This document shows, piece after piece, positions 4,065 through 29,818 of a stretch of DNA of 32,406 bases (the first letter of the stretch is position 1; the number at the start of each line of letters is the position of its first letter). The stretch is from positions 1 to 32,406 of the forward strand of contig CAADGJ010000123.1 in the NCBI GenBank assembly GCA_900696505.1, in the 5' to 3' direction. The translations under genes and the position numbers were made by a program. The notes under the pieces were generated by a model. That model did not search any database, had not been told where the DNA came from, and worked only from the letters and a program-made list of their open reading frames with translations. This DNA is from an uncultured Nitrosospira sp. (GTDB lineage: Bacteria; Nitrospirota; Nitrospiria; Nitrospirales; Nitrospiraceae).

Positions 4065-4378
4065 GGTGCAATCAGAAAACGGCTTGAACACAGGATTGTT
4101 GCCCGTCATGCCGGGATCTCGTGGTCCCGTCGCACACCTATGCACACGCACTAGTGGTCTACCGGTTCTCGCAACTAACATGCCACTTGCCCGATCCTGT
4201 TCTTGCACCAAGTTACGCCCTCGCGTTCCTGCTTCTCCCTACACCGACGGTGGTTTTTGAACAATGTCCGGACAGAATCGGAAGATCAGGGCCGGAAATA
4301 GCGGGGCATGCCGGAGATGAGGGTTCGCCGCAGAAACAAGGCTGTGGTACCATGCCCTTTTCACTGGAGCGCTCTACT
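4065..4378. other. Divergent intergenic region
   Basis: About 314 bases between the minus-strand receiver-PAS gene and the plus-strand Cys-rich gene, so it must hold two promoters unless the regulator starts further upstream. I found no convincing -35/-10 pair. Short inverted repeats are present: CGGGA/TCCCG near 4113-4130 and CTTG/CAAG near 4204-4214. Nothing else is recognisable. Confidence 0.35.
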
Positions 4379-4753
4379 ATGTCCTGGCTCGTCCGCCTGA
4401 TTTCCCCTGGCCTACTCAGTGTGCAGATTGCGCTTCTTGTCATGCCGTTCGACGCGCAGGCACAAGCACCTGCTGACTCTGCGGCCACCACCGAACACTC
4501 CTGCAGTTTCGGCATGGCCAAGGGTGATCCGGCCCATCAGTGCCAAGTACCAATTCCAGCCGGCTGTGTCATCGCAACATTTCCCGGGACAGACAAACCC
4601 TGGACGACCGTCTCAAAAGCCGGTCGCACCTTCTGCGCCTTCGACAAAAAAGGGACGGACTGGAAAAACAAGATTACCGGTCAATGCACCCGCTGCGATT
4701 CGAGCCATTGCACCGGCCAATTCATGGTGCGTTTCGAGTGCGCGAAACCGTAA
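4379..4753 (+). CDS. Small secreted cysteine-rich protein, function unknown
   Basis: I do not recognise this 124-residue protein. Residues 1-30 form a signal peptide (hydrophobic stretch about 9-22, cleavage likely after AQA). The mature part of about 95 residues has eight cysteines, including a CTRC and an HC pair near the C terminus, enough for four disulfides or a metal site, and many polar residues. ATG 4379 is preferred because GGAG sits nine bases upstream (4366-4369); an alternative ATG at 4352 would add nine residues. The stop codon overlaps the queG start by one base (TAATG), so the two are probably translated from one mRNA. It is likely periplasmic or extracellular, so a direct role in queuosine synthesis is unlikely. 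Confidence 0.72.
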   Translation: MSWLVRLISPGLLSVQIALLVMPFDAQAQAPADSAATTEHSCSFGMAKGDPAHQCQVPIPAGCVIATFPGTDKPWTTVSKAGRTFCAFDKKGTDWKNKITGQCTRCDSSHCTGQFMVRFECAKP

Positions 4754-23548: not shown

Positions 23549-24229
23549 ATGCGTCTGGGAGTTTTGGGCGGCAGTTTTAATCCGATTCACCGCTGCCATC
23601 TCTCGATTGCGCAGTCGGCGCGGCGTCTGCTGTGTCTGGATCAAGTCTTGTTCATCCCGACCGGAGATCCTCCGCACAAACAACCAGACACCTTGGCGTC
23701 CGCACAGCATCGCTACCGCATGGTGCAATTGGCTATTCAGGACGAGCCTGCCTTCACCCTTACCGATATCGAAATCTGCCGATCCGGCAAATCCTATTCC
23801 ATCGACACGGTCCGTGCCCTTCAAGAGCAATACGGGTCCGACACGGAGATTTTCTTCATCATTGGCCTCGATGCCTTTCTGGACCTGCCTTCCTGGAAGG
23901 ATGCCGCACAGCTTCTTAGCCTGTGTCATTTCGTCGTAATTTCCAGGCCCGCCACAACGTTTCTGACCGTGGCCTCGCTGCCTCTCTTTCCCGAAGTGCC
24001 CAAGGAGGAGTTGCTCGCTCTGGATACAGGCCGGCTGGAGCGAGCGGACGTGCCCCTGAAAACCGGCCGGACCGTGACTTTCCTGAGGCTGCCGCCCTGC
24101 GAGAGCTCTGCCTCGGAAATCAGAGCACGCGTCGCGGATGGCCGTGCACTGGCAAATCTGTTGCCCCCCCTGGTCGAATCCTATATACTTCGCGAGGGGT
24201 TATACAGGGAGGACAGTGAGCGTTTCTGA
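23549..24229 (+). CDS. nadD: Nicotinate-nucleotide adenylyltransferase
   Basis: Converts nicotinate mononucleotide to nicotinate adenine dinucleotide in NAD synthesis. 226 residues with the nucleotidyltransferase signature GGSFNPIHRCHL near residue 8, IPTGDPPHK, and the C-terminal SSASEIR motif. AAGG sits nine bases before ATG 23549. The last 14 bases overlap rsfS. The 89-base gap after proB includes a hairpin GACGCC/GGCGTC (23469-23490). Confidence 0.94.
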   Translation: MRLGVLGGSFNPIHRCHLSIAQSARRLLCLDQVLFIPTGDPPHKQPDTLASAQHRYRMVQLAIQDEPAFTLTDIEICRSGKSYSIDTVRALQEQYGSDTEIFFIIGLDAFLDLPSWKDAAQLLSLCHFVVISRPATTFLTVASLPLFPEVPKEELLALDTGRLERADVPLKTGRTVTFLRLPPCESSASEIRARVADGRALANLLPPLVESYILREGLYREDSERF

Positions 24230-24638
24230 AACAAAAGCCAAAGCTCTCGCGGTGGCGGCCGCCATTCTGGACAAGAAAGCCACCGATGTCCTGATCCTGC
24301 ATATCGCCAAGCTGACCTCTATCGCCGACTATTTAGTCATCGGCTCCGGAGAGTCGGAGCGTCAAGCACGGGCGATCGCGGACCATGTCGGCGATGTGCT
24401 CAAGGCCCAGGGGCATCCGCCGCTCGGTATCGAGGGCGCGTCGTCTGCCAAGTGGGTCGTCATGGACTTTGGTGACGTCATCGTCCACATCTTCCAAAAG
24501 GATATTCGCGAACACTACGCCCTCGAACGACTGTGGGGCGACGCAGGACAGGTCAAGCTGCCGGAAGAGCGCGCCGTGAAGGTGACTCCCCCCGCACGAA
24601 CGAAGGCCCGTCCCGCTCGCACCCGGAAACGGGTCTAG
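24216..24638 (+). CDS. rsfS: Ribosomal silencing factor RsfS
   Basis: 140-residue protein that binds L14 and blocks joining of ribosomal subunits when nutrients are scarce. Conserved features are DVLILHIAKLTSIADYLVIGSG, the SERQARAIAD helix, and WVVMDFGDVIVHIFQKDIREHYALERLWGDA. A basic Pro/Arg/Lys tail of about 25 residues extends beyond the usual domain. GTG 24216 has AGGGAGG just upstream (spacing only three) and overlaps nadD by 14 bases; nadD-rsfS is a very common pair. Confidence 0.93.
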   Translation: MSVSETKAKALAVAAAILDKKATDVLILHIAKLTSIADYLVIGSGESERQARAIADHVGDVLKAQGHPPLGIEGASSAKWVVMDFGDVIVHIFQKDIREHYALERLWGDAGQVKLPEERAVKVTPPARTKARPARTRKRV

Positions 24639-24639
24639 C

Positions 24640-26040
24640 ATGTTTCGGCTCCTCTCCACGATCTTCCTGGTCAGTGTCGGCATCTTTCTCTACAGCTATT
24701 TCCGCGAACTGAACCCGGGCACGATCACCGTCCGGACCAGTCCCGACGCGATCTTCGAGCTCAGCCCCGTCTCCTTGGTGCTATTCTCGATGGCCCTGGG
24801 CGCCACGCTGGTTGCACTGATCGTGACGATCAAAGAAACCTCCCACGTCTTCATGAATTGGCGCACCAATCGCCTCGTCCGCCGTAAAGAGAAAGTGGAC
24901 GCGCTCCACCGGGATGGCACGCACGCCTTCATGTCCAAGCGTACAGCCGATGCGGTGAGTCTGTTTGAGCGGGCCCTGGTCATTGATCCGAACCGGACCG
25001 ATTCGCTGCTCTGGCTCGGAAATATCTATCGCTCTGAAAGCAACTTTACGGAGGCCATCCGGCTCCACCAGCAGGCCTATCGCATTGAAGAACGAAATGT
25101 GGAGGTGCTTCTCGAATTAGCCAAAGATCTTGAAGGCGCCCGTCGCTATGAAGAGGCACTTCAGACACTCCAGAATATTCTGCGGATCGAGCCGGACAAT
25201 CTAATGGCCCTGATCCGCAAGCGCGATCTGCAAATCAGGCTCGAAAAATGGAGCGACGCGCTGGAGATTCAACACCGGTTGGTCAAGGCTAACCTGCCGG
25301 AAAGCGAGCGACGCGCCGAGGCCAATCTGTTATTGGGCTGTATGTACGAAGTCGGCCGCCAACTCTTGGAACGAGGGCACCCGGACAAGGCCCGCCGGTA
25401 CTTCCGAGGCGCGATTAAGAAAGATCGCACCTTTCTGCCGGCCTACATCGGCATCGGGGAAATCTTGGTCCGTGAGGGCAAAATCAAGAACGCGGTCGAA
25501 ATTCTCAAGAAGATTTACGCCAAGACGCGCAGCGTCATCATCCTTCACCGCCTCGAGGAACTGTTCCTGGAGCTGGGAGAACCGGATGAAATCATCCGTG
25601 TCTACCAGGAAGCTCTGCAACAGGATCCGCACAATGCTGTGATCCAGTTCTACCTGGGCAAGCTGTATTACCGGCTCGAAATGGTCGATGAAGCGTACGA
25701 CGTGCTTTCAACGCTGGATGGCACGCAGGAACAGCTCGTTGATTACCATAAGATCATGGCCAATCTGTTCCTGCGCAAGCAACACATGGACGAAGCGGTG
25801 GGCGAGCTCAAGAAAGCCCTGGGCTTCAAAAAGCGAGTCGTGGTGCCCTACCAATGCACCCAGTGCCACCATGAGTTGGCCGAATGGTCCGGCCGGTGCC
25901 GGCGGTGCGGCCGCTGGAATACCTACGTCGCCCTTCCCTGGAGAGACAGCACCAAATCCGGTGCCGATCAGGACGGACAGGCTGCCCGGCTGCCTGCCGT
26001 CCCCTATCAAGGCATTGCATCTCCGTTTGAAACCGTGTAG
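24640..26040 (+). CDS. LapA/LapB-like fusion: membrane-anchored TPR protein with rubredoxin-type zinc ribbon
   Basis: 466 residues. Residues 1-80 hold two membrane segments (about 2-21 and 43-66) around 'NPGTITVRTSPDAIFELSP', the pattern of LapA (DUF1049). Residues 84-400 form about eight TPR repeats. A zinc ribbon follows with Cys406/409 (CTQC) and Cys420/423 (CRRC), then a short tail. The TPR plus C-terminal ribbon is the LapB (YciM) plan; in E. coli LapA and LapB are separate adjacent genes, and LapB steers FtsH-mediated degradation of LpxC to balance lipopolysaccharide synthesis. A similar role is inferred. It starts one base after the rsfS stop, so it is probably co-transcribed. Confidence 0.85.
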   Translation: MFRLLSTIFLVSVGIFLYSYFRELNPGTITVRTSPDAIFELSPVSLVLFSMALGATLVALIVTIKETSHVFMNWRTNRLVRRKEKVDALHRDGTHAFMSKRTADAVSLFERALVIDPNRTDSLLWLGNIYRSESNFTEAIRLHQQAYRIEERNVEVLLELAKDLEGARRYEEALQTLQNILRIEPDNLMALIRKRDLQIRLEKWSDALEIQHRLVKANLPESERRAEANLLLGCMYEVGRQLLERGHPDKARRYFRGAIKKDRTFLPAYIGIGEILVREGKIKNAVEILKKIYAKTRSVIILHRLEELFLELGEPDEIIRVYQEALQQDPHNAVIQFYLGKLYYRLEMVDEAYDVLSTLDGTQEQLVDYHKIMANLFLRKQHMDEAVGELKKALGFKKRVVVPYQCTQCHHELAEWSGRCRRCGRWNTYVALPWRDSTKSGADQDGQAARLPAVPYQGIASPFETV

Positions 26041-26140: not shown

Positions 26141-27172
26141 ATGACTGATTTCACGATCCTGGCCGACAAGGCCTTGCGGGACGAATTACTCACCCGAGAG
26201 GAATGCCTCACCGTACTACATACACCGGACACCAACCTGCTCGAGCTTCTGCAGGCCGCCTTTAAGGTCCGGGAACGGTACTTCGGTAAGACGGTGCGCC
26301 TGCAAATGCTCTTGAACGCCAAGAGCGGCGCCTGCCAGGAAGACTGCGGCTACTGCTCGCAATCATCCGTGTCCACGGCGCCCATCGAACGATATGGATT
26401 GTTGCCGCAAGATCAAATGGTGACCGGCGCGCGCCGTGCGGCAGCCGCGAAAGCCCAACGCTACTGCATCGTCATCAGCGGACGCAGCCCGCTGGATCGG
26501 GAGATCGCCGATATCGCCTCAGCCGTCCGATCCATCAAGCAGGAAGTCCCGATCCAGATCTGCTGTTCCCTGGGAATCCTCAACGAACGGCAGGCAAAAG
26601 ACCTCAAAGCAGCCGGCGTGGATCGCATCAATCACAATTTGAATACGAGCGAAGCCTATCACACGGAAATCTGCAGCACGCACACCTTTCAAGACCGGCT
26701 CGCCACCATTCGACATGCCAGGACGGCCGGACTGGAAATCTGTTCAGGCGGCATCGTCGGGATGGGAGAAGGCGATGAGGACTTGATCGATTTGGCACTG
26801 GCCCTGCGCGAGGTCAAGCCCGATTCGATTCCGCTCAACATGCTGCATCCGGCCTCCGGCACGCCACTGGAGCATTGCACTCCGCTGACGCCGCAGCGGT
26901 GCCTGAAAGCCCTCTGCCTCTTCCGCTTCCTTCACCCGCGGACGGAGCTTCGTATCGCCGGCGGACGAGAACACAACTTACGCAGCCTCCAGCCATTGGC
27001 ACTCTACCCGGCCGATTCAGTGTTTGTGAACGGGTATCTCACCACTCCGGGACAACCGGCCGCAGAAGTCTGGCGCATGATCGAAGACCTGGGATTCGAC
27101 ATTCAAGTGGACGCGCTTCCGACACAGGGTGCCACTTCGTCCGCCGAACCGGCTGTCGGCCTTCATTCATAA
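26141..27172 (+). CDS. bioB: Biotin synthase
   Basis: Radical SAM enzyme that inserts sulfur into dethiobiotin. 343 residues with the cluster motif CxxxCxxC at Cys65, 69, 72 (GACQEDCGYCSQS), ICCSLG supplying a likely [2Fe-2S] cysteine, the NHNLNTSEAYHTEI signature, and the C-terminal RIAGGRE arginine region. GAGGAG lies in the leader before ATG 26141. No other biotin genes are in the window. A 28-codon open frame (26062-26148) overlaps the start. Confidence 0.95.
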   Translation: MTDFTILADKALRDELLTREECLTVLHTPDTNLLELLQAAFKVRERYFGKTVRLQMLLNAKSGACQEDCGYCSQSSVSTAPIERYGLLPQDQMVTGARRAAAAKAQRYCIVISGRSPLDREIADIASAVRSIKQEVPIQICCSLGILNERQAKDLKAAGVDRINHNLNTSEAYHTEICSTHTFQDRLATIRHARTAGLEICSGGIVGMGEGDEDLIDLALALREVKPDSIPLNMLHPASGTPLEHCTPLTPQRCLKALCLFRFLHPRTELRIAGGREHNLRSLQPLALYPADSVFVNGYLTTPGQPAAEVWRMIEDLGFDIQVDALPTQGATSSAEPAVGLHS

Positions 27173-28541
27173 CGCAGTCCCTCGACCAAGGGTTGTCTGG
27201 CGGCCCAGCGGGCCGGCCAGAACCCTGCGACGAGCGAGGCCACCAGGGCCAAGGCGGCAACCTCCGCCATCAGGCCGATGGGCCACGAAATCTGGATGGT
27301 CCAACCGAATGACTGCCGGTTGATCACCCGGATCAGAATGAGCGCCAGGGCTCCCCCTCCGACCAAACCCATCCCTGTCCCCAGCAATCCCAAATAGCCG
27401 GCCTCCCATAAAATCAACGCCGTGACCTGCCCCCGGCTACTGCCCAAGGCCTGGAGCGTGGCCAATTCACGACGCCGCTCAACCACCGACGTGACCAACG
27501 TGTTGATGATACCTAACGTCGCAATAATCACGGCGATGGCTTCCAGCACATAGGTCAACGTAAACGTCCGGTCGAAAATTCGAAGAAGCTCCTGGCGCAA
27601 TTCTGCATTACTCAATACGGTCGGCATGAGATTTCCCTGCGACGCCTGAGCGAGGGTGCCGAGAATCGCCATTCTTGCCTTCCCCATATCGGCTCCCGAT
27701 TCGACATAGACGGGAAACACGGTCACGCCGTCATCAGGCCACCATTGTTGATACAAGGATCGATCAATGACGATCTTTCCGCCATCGGTGGCATAATCAT
27801 AAAAGACTCCCAGCACCTCCACGGACTGTTCGCCCTTTGGGGTCACGATGGACAATCGATCCCCTTTGCCCAGCGCCAAATGATTCGCCACGACTTCCGA
27901 AAGAATCGCGCCTTCCCCGGCCGCAGCACGAGCCAAGATTGCCGCGGACTCCCCTGCGACGAAGAGATACCGGCTCCGTGCCGCATGGAGTGCCAGGTCT
28001 CTCGAAACCAGCGAGACCGGCCGGCCCTGCAGATCGATACGCAGGTCACGGTACATGTCTACCGCCGAGACCAGAGGAGCATTGGCCAACCGAGCCCGCC
28101 AGGCACCAGGCAGTACCGGACTGGACGACCCGCTGCGCACGGCGTGCGGCCATCCGGCAGGAGCGACAATAAAGTCCGCCATGACGGTCTGATCGATCCA
28201 GATTTCAACCGTGTCGCGAAAGCTGCGGATCATCACCAGCACACCAACCATGATCGCAACGCCCACGAGAAAGGCCGACACCGTGACGGCATTTCTTCCC
28301 ATGCCCCGGCTGGTCTGCTCTCGGGCAATGTGCCGAATGGCTCCGCCCAACGTCGGCGCCTGCGAAAGCGTCGTTAATTCCCGGGTACGGCAGAGGCTCT
28401 GCAACAGGATGGGGACGAGGCAGGACAGGCCGGCAAGAAGACAAAAGGTTGCCACGTACCCGAAGATCGGTACGCCACCCACCGGGCCGGCCAATGCGCA
28501 TCCCAGAGCGATGAGTAACAGCACTCCACCCGCCCCCCCCC
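27163..28541 (-). CDS. FtsX-type ABC permease, C-terminal part (after frameshift)
   Basis: Second half of a broken permease gene. After the G-run (28533-28541) this frame reads GGAGGVLLLIALGCALAGP, a membrane segment, then another one or two (YVATFCLLAGLSCLVPILL), a membrane helix at the start of the second repeat unit (NAVTVSAFLVGVAIMVGVLV), a periplasmic MacB-like domain, and the FtsX core: three helices with 'VVERRRELATLQALGSSRGQV'. It ends GLRYE. The frame remains open upstream to 28635 but those codons duplicate the other half in the wrong frame. The 3' end overlaps bioB by ten bases, converging. No start with a ribosome-binding site was seen for separate translation. Confidence 0.85.
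28533..28541 (-). repeat. G9 homopolymer tract at the permease frameshift
   Basis: Nine consecutive C on the plus strand (G on the coding strand). The upstream frame enters as ...AASLGG and the downstream frame leaves as GAGGVLLL. Removing one G makes one continuous frame from 29818 to 27163: 2655 bases, 885 codons including stop. This is the single point of disruption. Confidence 0.85.
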
Positions 28542-29818
28542 AGTGACGCCGCGCGAACACGTTGAGCGACGTCGTACTCACCCGGTGCCAGAGCCGCGAC
28601 CACAATCGTACGTCCGGCATCGACGCTCGGACCAAGCGCGCCCAGAACCGACACTCCGCTCCCGATCAATACCGCTTCGACCAATAACCGGCCAGACCCG
28701 ACAGGAAAACCAACAGTTCCTGTCGAATGGGACAGCGGTGTATACAGATCATGGATCGTCCTGCCGACCAGCGCGACAAGCACATCGCCCAACAACAGGC
28801 CGAGCATGCCTCCGAGCAGCCCGCCCACGACACCGAACATCCCGGCTTCCGCCAGGAACACAGCGACGACCATCGGCTCCGACATGCCGATGGCGCGGAG
28901 AATCCCCACCTCCCGACGTCGCTGCGCCACCGTAAAGGAGACCGTGTTGTAGATCAGGAAGATCCCGACCAACAGCCCCACCATGCTCAACACGGAGAGA
29001 TTCAGTTGAAAGGCCCCCACCATCGATTCAACCTGCTGGCTGCGCTGAATCGGGCGACGTATGGTGGTAGCCGGGGGCAAAACCCGCCCGATGGCCTCCG
29101 CCACCTGCTCAACCGACGAAGTGGGCGTCGTCACCACATCGATACGATCAAGGCGGCCGATCAGTCCGAACGTCCGCTGCACTGCTGCAATATCCATCAC
29201 CGCCATGCGGTCCCAGGGCGAAGGCCCACCAGGACGCCGGCCCATGACTCCGATAATCGACACCGACACGTGCTGATCCCCGCTCTGCAGCGCCAACTGA
29301 GCCCGTGGCGCGAGACTCAACTCCGACGCTAGGGCGTGCCCGATCAGAAGGCCATTTCTTGCCAGGAGGTCTTCCAGTGGCATTCGCTCACCGGCCCCCT
29401 CCCCTCGATTCGCTGGAGAAACGACACGTCCTCCCTCCGGGCTCAACTCTTCCAATAGGTCCAGGCCAAGGATCGAAAACGACTGCCGGGGGGACCGGCC
29501 GTCTGTGACCCGCACCCCGACCTCCAGCACCGGTCGAGCCGACAAGACACCGGGGACCGTCCGTACGGTGGAGATCAGACGTTCGTCCAAGCCGGTTTCC
29601 CCGGCCGACACCTCCAGCGTGACCGGGCCGGCTACCGTCAAGACTGATTCCTCGAAGGAACGCAGGACTTCCACGTTGGCCGTTTGGACGGCAATAGTGG
29701 CCGCCACGCCAAGCCCGACACCGAACATGGTCAACGCTGTCCGCCCCGGATGGGTGGACAAATGTGTCCACCCCAGGCTCGCACAGACTCTCAGTAAAGA
29801 AGAGTGAAACAACGACAT
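28542..29818 (-). CDS. FtsX-type ABC permease, N-terminal part (before frameshift)
   Basis: First half of an ABC exporter permease of the large eight- to ten-helix FtsX/MacB-like type, probably an inner-membrane component for lipid, lipoprotein or peptide export. It has an N-terminal membrane helix (ALTMFGVGLGVAATIAVQ), a periplasmic MacB-type domain (about 50-270), then the FtsX core (LSVLSMVGLLVGIFLIYNTV, VAQRRREVGILRAIGMSEPM, and two more helices), reaching LAPGEYDVAQRVRAAS at about residue 425. The frame then stays open, but as non-homologous sequence, to a stop at 28205. ATG 29818 is 25 to 30 bases below a candidate promoter. The matching ATPase may be the one at 31295-31993. Confidence 0.85.

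Follow-up and report, generated by a model that had tools for sequence, protein, structure and literature searches.

The 466-residue protein encoded at 24640..26040 of the window, i.e. of the whole 32,406-nucleotide stretch of DNA that was analysed, is the LapB-like protein of its genome, divergent from and collinear with E. coli LapB, and it carries a LapA-like membrane hairpin at its N-terminus. The joining of hairpin and LapB body is old and conserved in Nitrospirota, a phylum that comprises nitrite oxidisers and their relatives, and is not a local event. We consider it fairly probable that this protein is the Nitrospirota counterpart of LapB, i.e. an LpxC membrane adaptor provided in cis with a LapA-like module, a function that we infer. 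The features of the gene and of its upstream neighbours are the following:

23549..24229, + strand: nadD, conserved neighbour upstream (ORF list, neighbourhood comparison)
24138..24638, + strand: rsfS ORF, ribosome silencing factor (ORF list, neighbourhood comparison)
24640..26040, + strand: LapB-like coding sequence with N-terminal LapA-like hairpin, 466 aa (ORF list, homologue searches)
24643..24711, + strand: TM helix 1, residues 2-24, without counterpart in E. coli LapB (hydropathy, AlphaFold2)
24712..24765, + strand: putative periplasmic loop, residues 25-42, a predicted two-stranded beta hairpin whose first residue is the invariant Asn25 (orthologue alignment, AlphaFold2)
24712..24894, + strand: LapA_dom (PF06305) match, residues 25-85, 20.9 bits, under the cut-off of 28 (Pfam, profile-profile comparison)
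24766..24837, + strand: TM helix 2, residues ~43-66, with the invariant Gly54, at the position of the sole TM helix of E. coli LapB (hydropathy, alignment, BLASTP, AlphaFold2)
24883..25839, + strand: TPR array, residues ~82-400, collinear with E. coli LapB (profiles, BLASTP, AlphaFold2, Foldseek)
25849..25923, + strand: Zn_ribbon_LapB (PF18073), C406xxC409...C420xxC423 (Pfam, alignment)

In the AlphaFold2 model of the protein (mean pLDDT 85, with 24 aligned orthologues as input; TM helices assigned by hydropathy), a helix spanning residues 2-24 is followed by two short strands (29-34 and 37-41) and by a continuous helix (43-98), which exits the membrane and turns into the first TPR helix. The TPR superhelix then leads to the C-terminal ribbon containing C406, C409, C420 and C423. 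The final 31 residues are modelled at low confidence and are probably disordered.

The LapB plan of TPR repeats followed by a CxxC...CxxC ribbon, as proposed in the original prediction, is borne out by several independent comparisons. Residues 82-428 align by BLASTP to residues 28-379 of E. coli LapB (YciM, b1280) with an E-value of 7e-18 and an identity of ~23%; the alignment includes the rubredoxin-like ribbon, all four cysteines of which are matched. Many TPR models match the protein in a profile scan, and its best NCBIfam match is a LapB equivalog, at 90.4 bits. This score is far from the curated cut-off (>=363 bits), which counts against the adaptor reading; the NCBIfam LapB models nevertheless match 24/24 aligned orthologues, with a best E-value of 1.5e-34. 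The Zn_ribbon_LapB profile scores 28.2 bits in a genome-wide search, above its cut-off of 25.7, and 22.7 bits, below it, when the whole protein is scanned. At the structural level, the solved LapB chains 4zlh, 9up5 and 8v24 give target TM-scores of 0.75-0.77 against the model in Foldseek, as opposed to roughly 0.1-0.47 for other TPR chains among the matches listed. As BLASTP, NCBIfam, Foldseek and the ribbon search agree, the protein can be called the LapB-like protein of this genome. In the search with the LapB-type ribbon profile, RadA is the sole further protein above cut-off in the genome, and no second, separate LapB was found. In both the Nitrospira protein and E. coli LapB, the membrane anchor adjoins the first TPR. 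The two differ in their anchors, with a single TM helix and no periplasmic loop in E. coli LapB against two TM helices and a loop in the Nitrospira protein, and in gene context, the Nitrospira gene having rsfS upstream and lapA on another contig.

The other half of the proposal, that residues 1-80 have the two-helix pattern of LapA, holds once orthologues are included. Taken alone, the window protein matches LapA_dom with an E-value of 3.4e-4 and stays below the gathering cut-off, a further point against the adaptor reading. The same model matches 24/25 divergent orthologues, and at least one of them (L192) exceeds the cut-off, with 28.8 bits. When the hairpin profile is compared by hhalign with a ten-sequence LapA alignment, the score is 41 (probability 93.7), against a mean of 17 and a maximum of 25.7 for 60 shuffles preserving the composition of helix, loop and tail, and about 21 for reversed profiles. 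Two residues, N25 and G54, are invariant across the 25 divergent hairpins; the E. coli LapA residues aligned with them, N24 and G56, are in turn invariant in the LapA set. Two TM helices are predicted by hydropathy in 25/25 representative orthologues. The same plan (helix 2-22, helix 39-101) is predicted, at a modest pLDDT of 70, for the LapA that this genome encodes as a separate protein. The hairpin thus resembles E. coli LapA (YciS, b1279) and the LapA_dom family in its helix-loop-helix arrangement, its Asn after TM1 and its Gly in TM2. It differs from E. coli LapA, a stand-alone protein of ~100 aa, in scoring below the Pfam cut-off and in having a second helix that continues into the TPRs. 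Where LapA closes TM1 with a QN motif, the window protein and most orthologues have LN, the N being invariant and the Q not. The single pre-TPR helix of E. coli LapB is positionally equivalent to TM2 (BLASTP, AlphaFold2), and TM1 and the loop are therefore the added piece. TM2 is common to both modules, and the protein is not a whole LapA placed ahead of a whole LapB.

This organisation is widespread in the phylum. The orthologues in the best-matching GTDB records belong to Nitrospira and are 99-94% identical (95% for Candidatus Nitrospira defluvii FP929003). A search of 41 close relatives recovers the protein in 24/25 members of the genus, the source genome being counted among them, as well as in one other family within the order. 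Sampling of 246 genomes, all of them Nitrospirota, places the LapB-like family in 218, with the listed matches beginning within the first 17 profile positions. At 20 divergent loci, drawn from at least 19 families, hydropathy predicts two TM helices in every case; rsfS lies directly upstream in all 20 and nadD is also present in 19. No relatives of the protein were found among viral contigs. Within the genus, the hairpin is under purifying selection, with dN of 0.014-0.084 for dS of 0.6-1.7; its dN ranges from about that of the TPRs to a few times that value and is below that of the disordered tail. No earlier description of a LapA-LapB fusion was found in the literature searched.

A single base separates the rsfS stop codon from the ATG of the lapB-like gene, which suggests that translation of the latter is coupled to rsfS rather than to lapA. 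The conservation of the rsfS-lapB order throughout the phylum constitutes an unexplained link between ribosome silencing and LPS control.

The hairpin might have arisen without any fusion. The two-helix N-terminus could be ancestral in a wider family of TPR anchors (HemY_N/LapA/LapB), gammaproteobacterial LapB having lost helix 1, a possibility to which we give real but limited credence. HemY_N (PF07219) matches 16/25 hairpins, with a best E-value of 3.7e-6, which also weighs against the adaptor reading, and one orthologue (L200) scores better to HemY_N than to LapA_dom. By hhalign, the hairpin profile scores 31.5 against E. coli HemY, above the shuffle maximum of 25. The near-universality of the architecture in Nitrospirota and the fact that TM2 is common with LapB, and not duplicated, likewise count in favour of an ancestral anchor. 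On the other hand, the majority of hairpins score better to LapA_dom, and LapA outscores HemY at the profile level (41 vs 31.5, HemY being represented by a single sequence). HemY_N gives 12.4 bits with the window protein and at best 27.5 with orthologues run singly, the cut-off being 31. E. coli HemY, which resembles our protein by its two-helix N-terminus followed by TPRs and by this weak profile match, lacks the Asn and Gly invariant in hairpins and LapA; it is also devoid of a zinc ribbon, and its heme-operon context is absent from the Nitrospira locus. Our reading is that the hairpin is LapA-like and may belong to a broader group comprising LapA and HemY_N, its likeness to LapA being convincing only when orthologues are taken into account.

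It could alternatively be argued that the protein is a TPR scaffold that resembles LapB and works in some other process of the envelope in which LpxC has no part. The sequence is only distantly similar to E. coli LapB (the ~23% identity given above), TPR families match many functions, and the gene neighbourhood, nadD-rsfS-bioB, contains no LPS genes. Moreover, none of the 16 genomes sampled from family f3, which belongs to the same order, gave a LapB-like match at the threshold used; RadA is the only LapB-type ribbon in eight of its genomes and lpxC is present in 6/6 genomes checked. Since lpxC persists in this sister family although no LapB ribbon was detected there, LpxC does not require a LapB-like protein, a point that also tells against the adaptor reading. 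Nevertheless, the collinear alignment extends through the ribbon, and LapB structures stand apart from the other TPR matches by TM-score, so that we hold such an unrelated function to be unlikely. In one f3 genome (G026), the stand-alone LapA gene adjoins purH and not any LapB gene.

The partners expected of a LapB-type adaptor were also searched for. The source genome contains two full copies of ftsH. lpxC was not found in this draft, which is 89% complete; it is present in 39/41 relatives, including 33/33 of good quality, and in 108/109 good-quality Nitrospirota genomes. Because all good-quality relatives carry lpxC, its absence is treated as a draft gap. The LpxC tail of the genus (...RPAPSLAI/V) is similar to that of E. 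coli (...FKAPSAVLA). When LpxC C-terminal tails, the possible site of an E. coli-like degron, were set against LapB presence in 40 genomes, no clear pattern was found: tails vary between families throughout the phylum, do not track LapB presence, which is a point against the adaptor reading, and are also nonpolar in families without LapB. LpxC matches lie in frames of ~440-500 aa in one family (f17; G045, G063, G092 and G096) and of ~420 aa in another (f4); in some genomes there are two genes for LpxC, and the long frame holding one of them may represent a fusion of the LpxC-FabZ type.

YejM is the LPS-sensing anti-adaptor of E. coli. YejM/LapC (DUF3413) was detected in 9/118 Nitrospirota genomes and in none of the listed Nitrospira. 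The DUF3413 carriers (G088, G048, G065, G057, G081, G102 of family f20, G079, G146 and G147; loci L223 and L224) belong to a few families, and their proteins are mostly encoded in open frames of ~600-640 aa. Nitrospirota offer a setting in which a LapB system occurs mostly without a detected copy of this anti-adaptor.

In E. coli, the adaptor LapB attaches to FtsH through its TM helix and recruits LpxC with its cytoplasmic part (PMC9356133). LapB and LapA co-purify and their translation is coupled (PMC7730581), and a 2025 review describes the way in which LapA influences LapB as unclear (PMC12444477). The Neisseria LapB homologue holds LpxC at the membrane without FtsH degradation (PMC12444477). 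By analogy, the TPR/ribbon part of the Nitrospirota protein would bind LpxC, and its membrane helices could either dock it on FtsH or simply keep LpxC at the membrane. TM1 and the loop would then provide in cis what LapA provides in trans in E. coli, probably by offering, on the side of the periplasmic leaflet, a surface for contact or sensing. Since YejM is undetected in most of Nitrospirota, the hairpin may be what supplies the signal input that is missing there. A stronger version, that the hairpin itself is a lipid or LPS sensor and that LpxC is controlled without YejM by a one-protein sensor-adaptor, is in our opinion quite doubtful; if it were true, the unexplained role of LapA in E. coli would be that of a detached version of this sensor. 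That LapB and a LapA-like hairpin are naturally joined across a whole phylum provides independent evidence for their acting together. The joined protein also predicts where LapA is placed, its second helix lying against, or in place of, the membrane helix of LapB.

The original prediction went further, in that a fixed one-to-one fusion, with no separate complete lapA elsewhere, would make LapA and LapB work as one unit. That hairpin and LapB body work as one unit is plausible, since they form a single polypeptide that is kept throughout the phylum and evolves under purifying selection. One-to-one replacement, in contrast, does not hold in the genus, as a complete stand-alone LapA is encoded in the same genome, at 4171-4515 of another contig (C118), with a LapA_dom score of 48.1 bits (E=3.4e-12). 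Its gene sits between tsaE and mutS. A LapA_dom match above cut-off is present in all members of the genus that were searched, usually in addition to the fused protein. As Nitrospira retains this second, unlinked LapA, we infer that LapA additionally acts in some way that is auxiliary or does not depend on LapB. In some Nitrospira genomes (G002, G003, G013 and G020 among others; L052-L055 and L058), a second stand-alone LapA-domain protein is found beside the tsaE-lapA-mutS copy.

A true gene fusion replacing separate lapA and lapB genes is therefore refuted for the genus, where a separate LapA scores above cut-off in the source genome and in all genomes sampled, and we judge it improbable overall, even though both parts lie in a single ORF. 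In its favour, 77/246 Nitrospirota genomes are without a LapA_dom match above cut-off, and in some of these the hairpin may be the sole LapA-type domain. In the closed genome G054, the best LapA_dom match has an E-value of 1.2e-4 and the fused hairpin scores 22.9 bits, which fits the possibility that no LapA-type domain other than that of the fused gene is encoded there.

Finally, an assembly artefact joining two genes, conceivable in a 413-contig draft genome, has practically no chance of being the explanation and was rejected, the full-length ORF being also found in closed genomes (FP929003 and NZ_CP011801 among them) and in many families phylum-wide. Elsewhere in the window, at 27163-29818 on the - strand, two overlapping ORFs of 490 and 537 aa resemble the halves of one large permease of the FtsX/MacB type; towards its C-terminus the 537-aa ORF seems to have left the correct reading frame, which suggests a frameshift in the draft.
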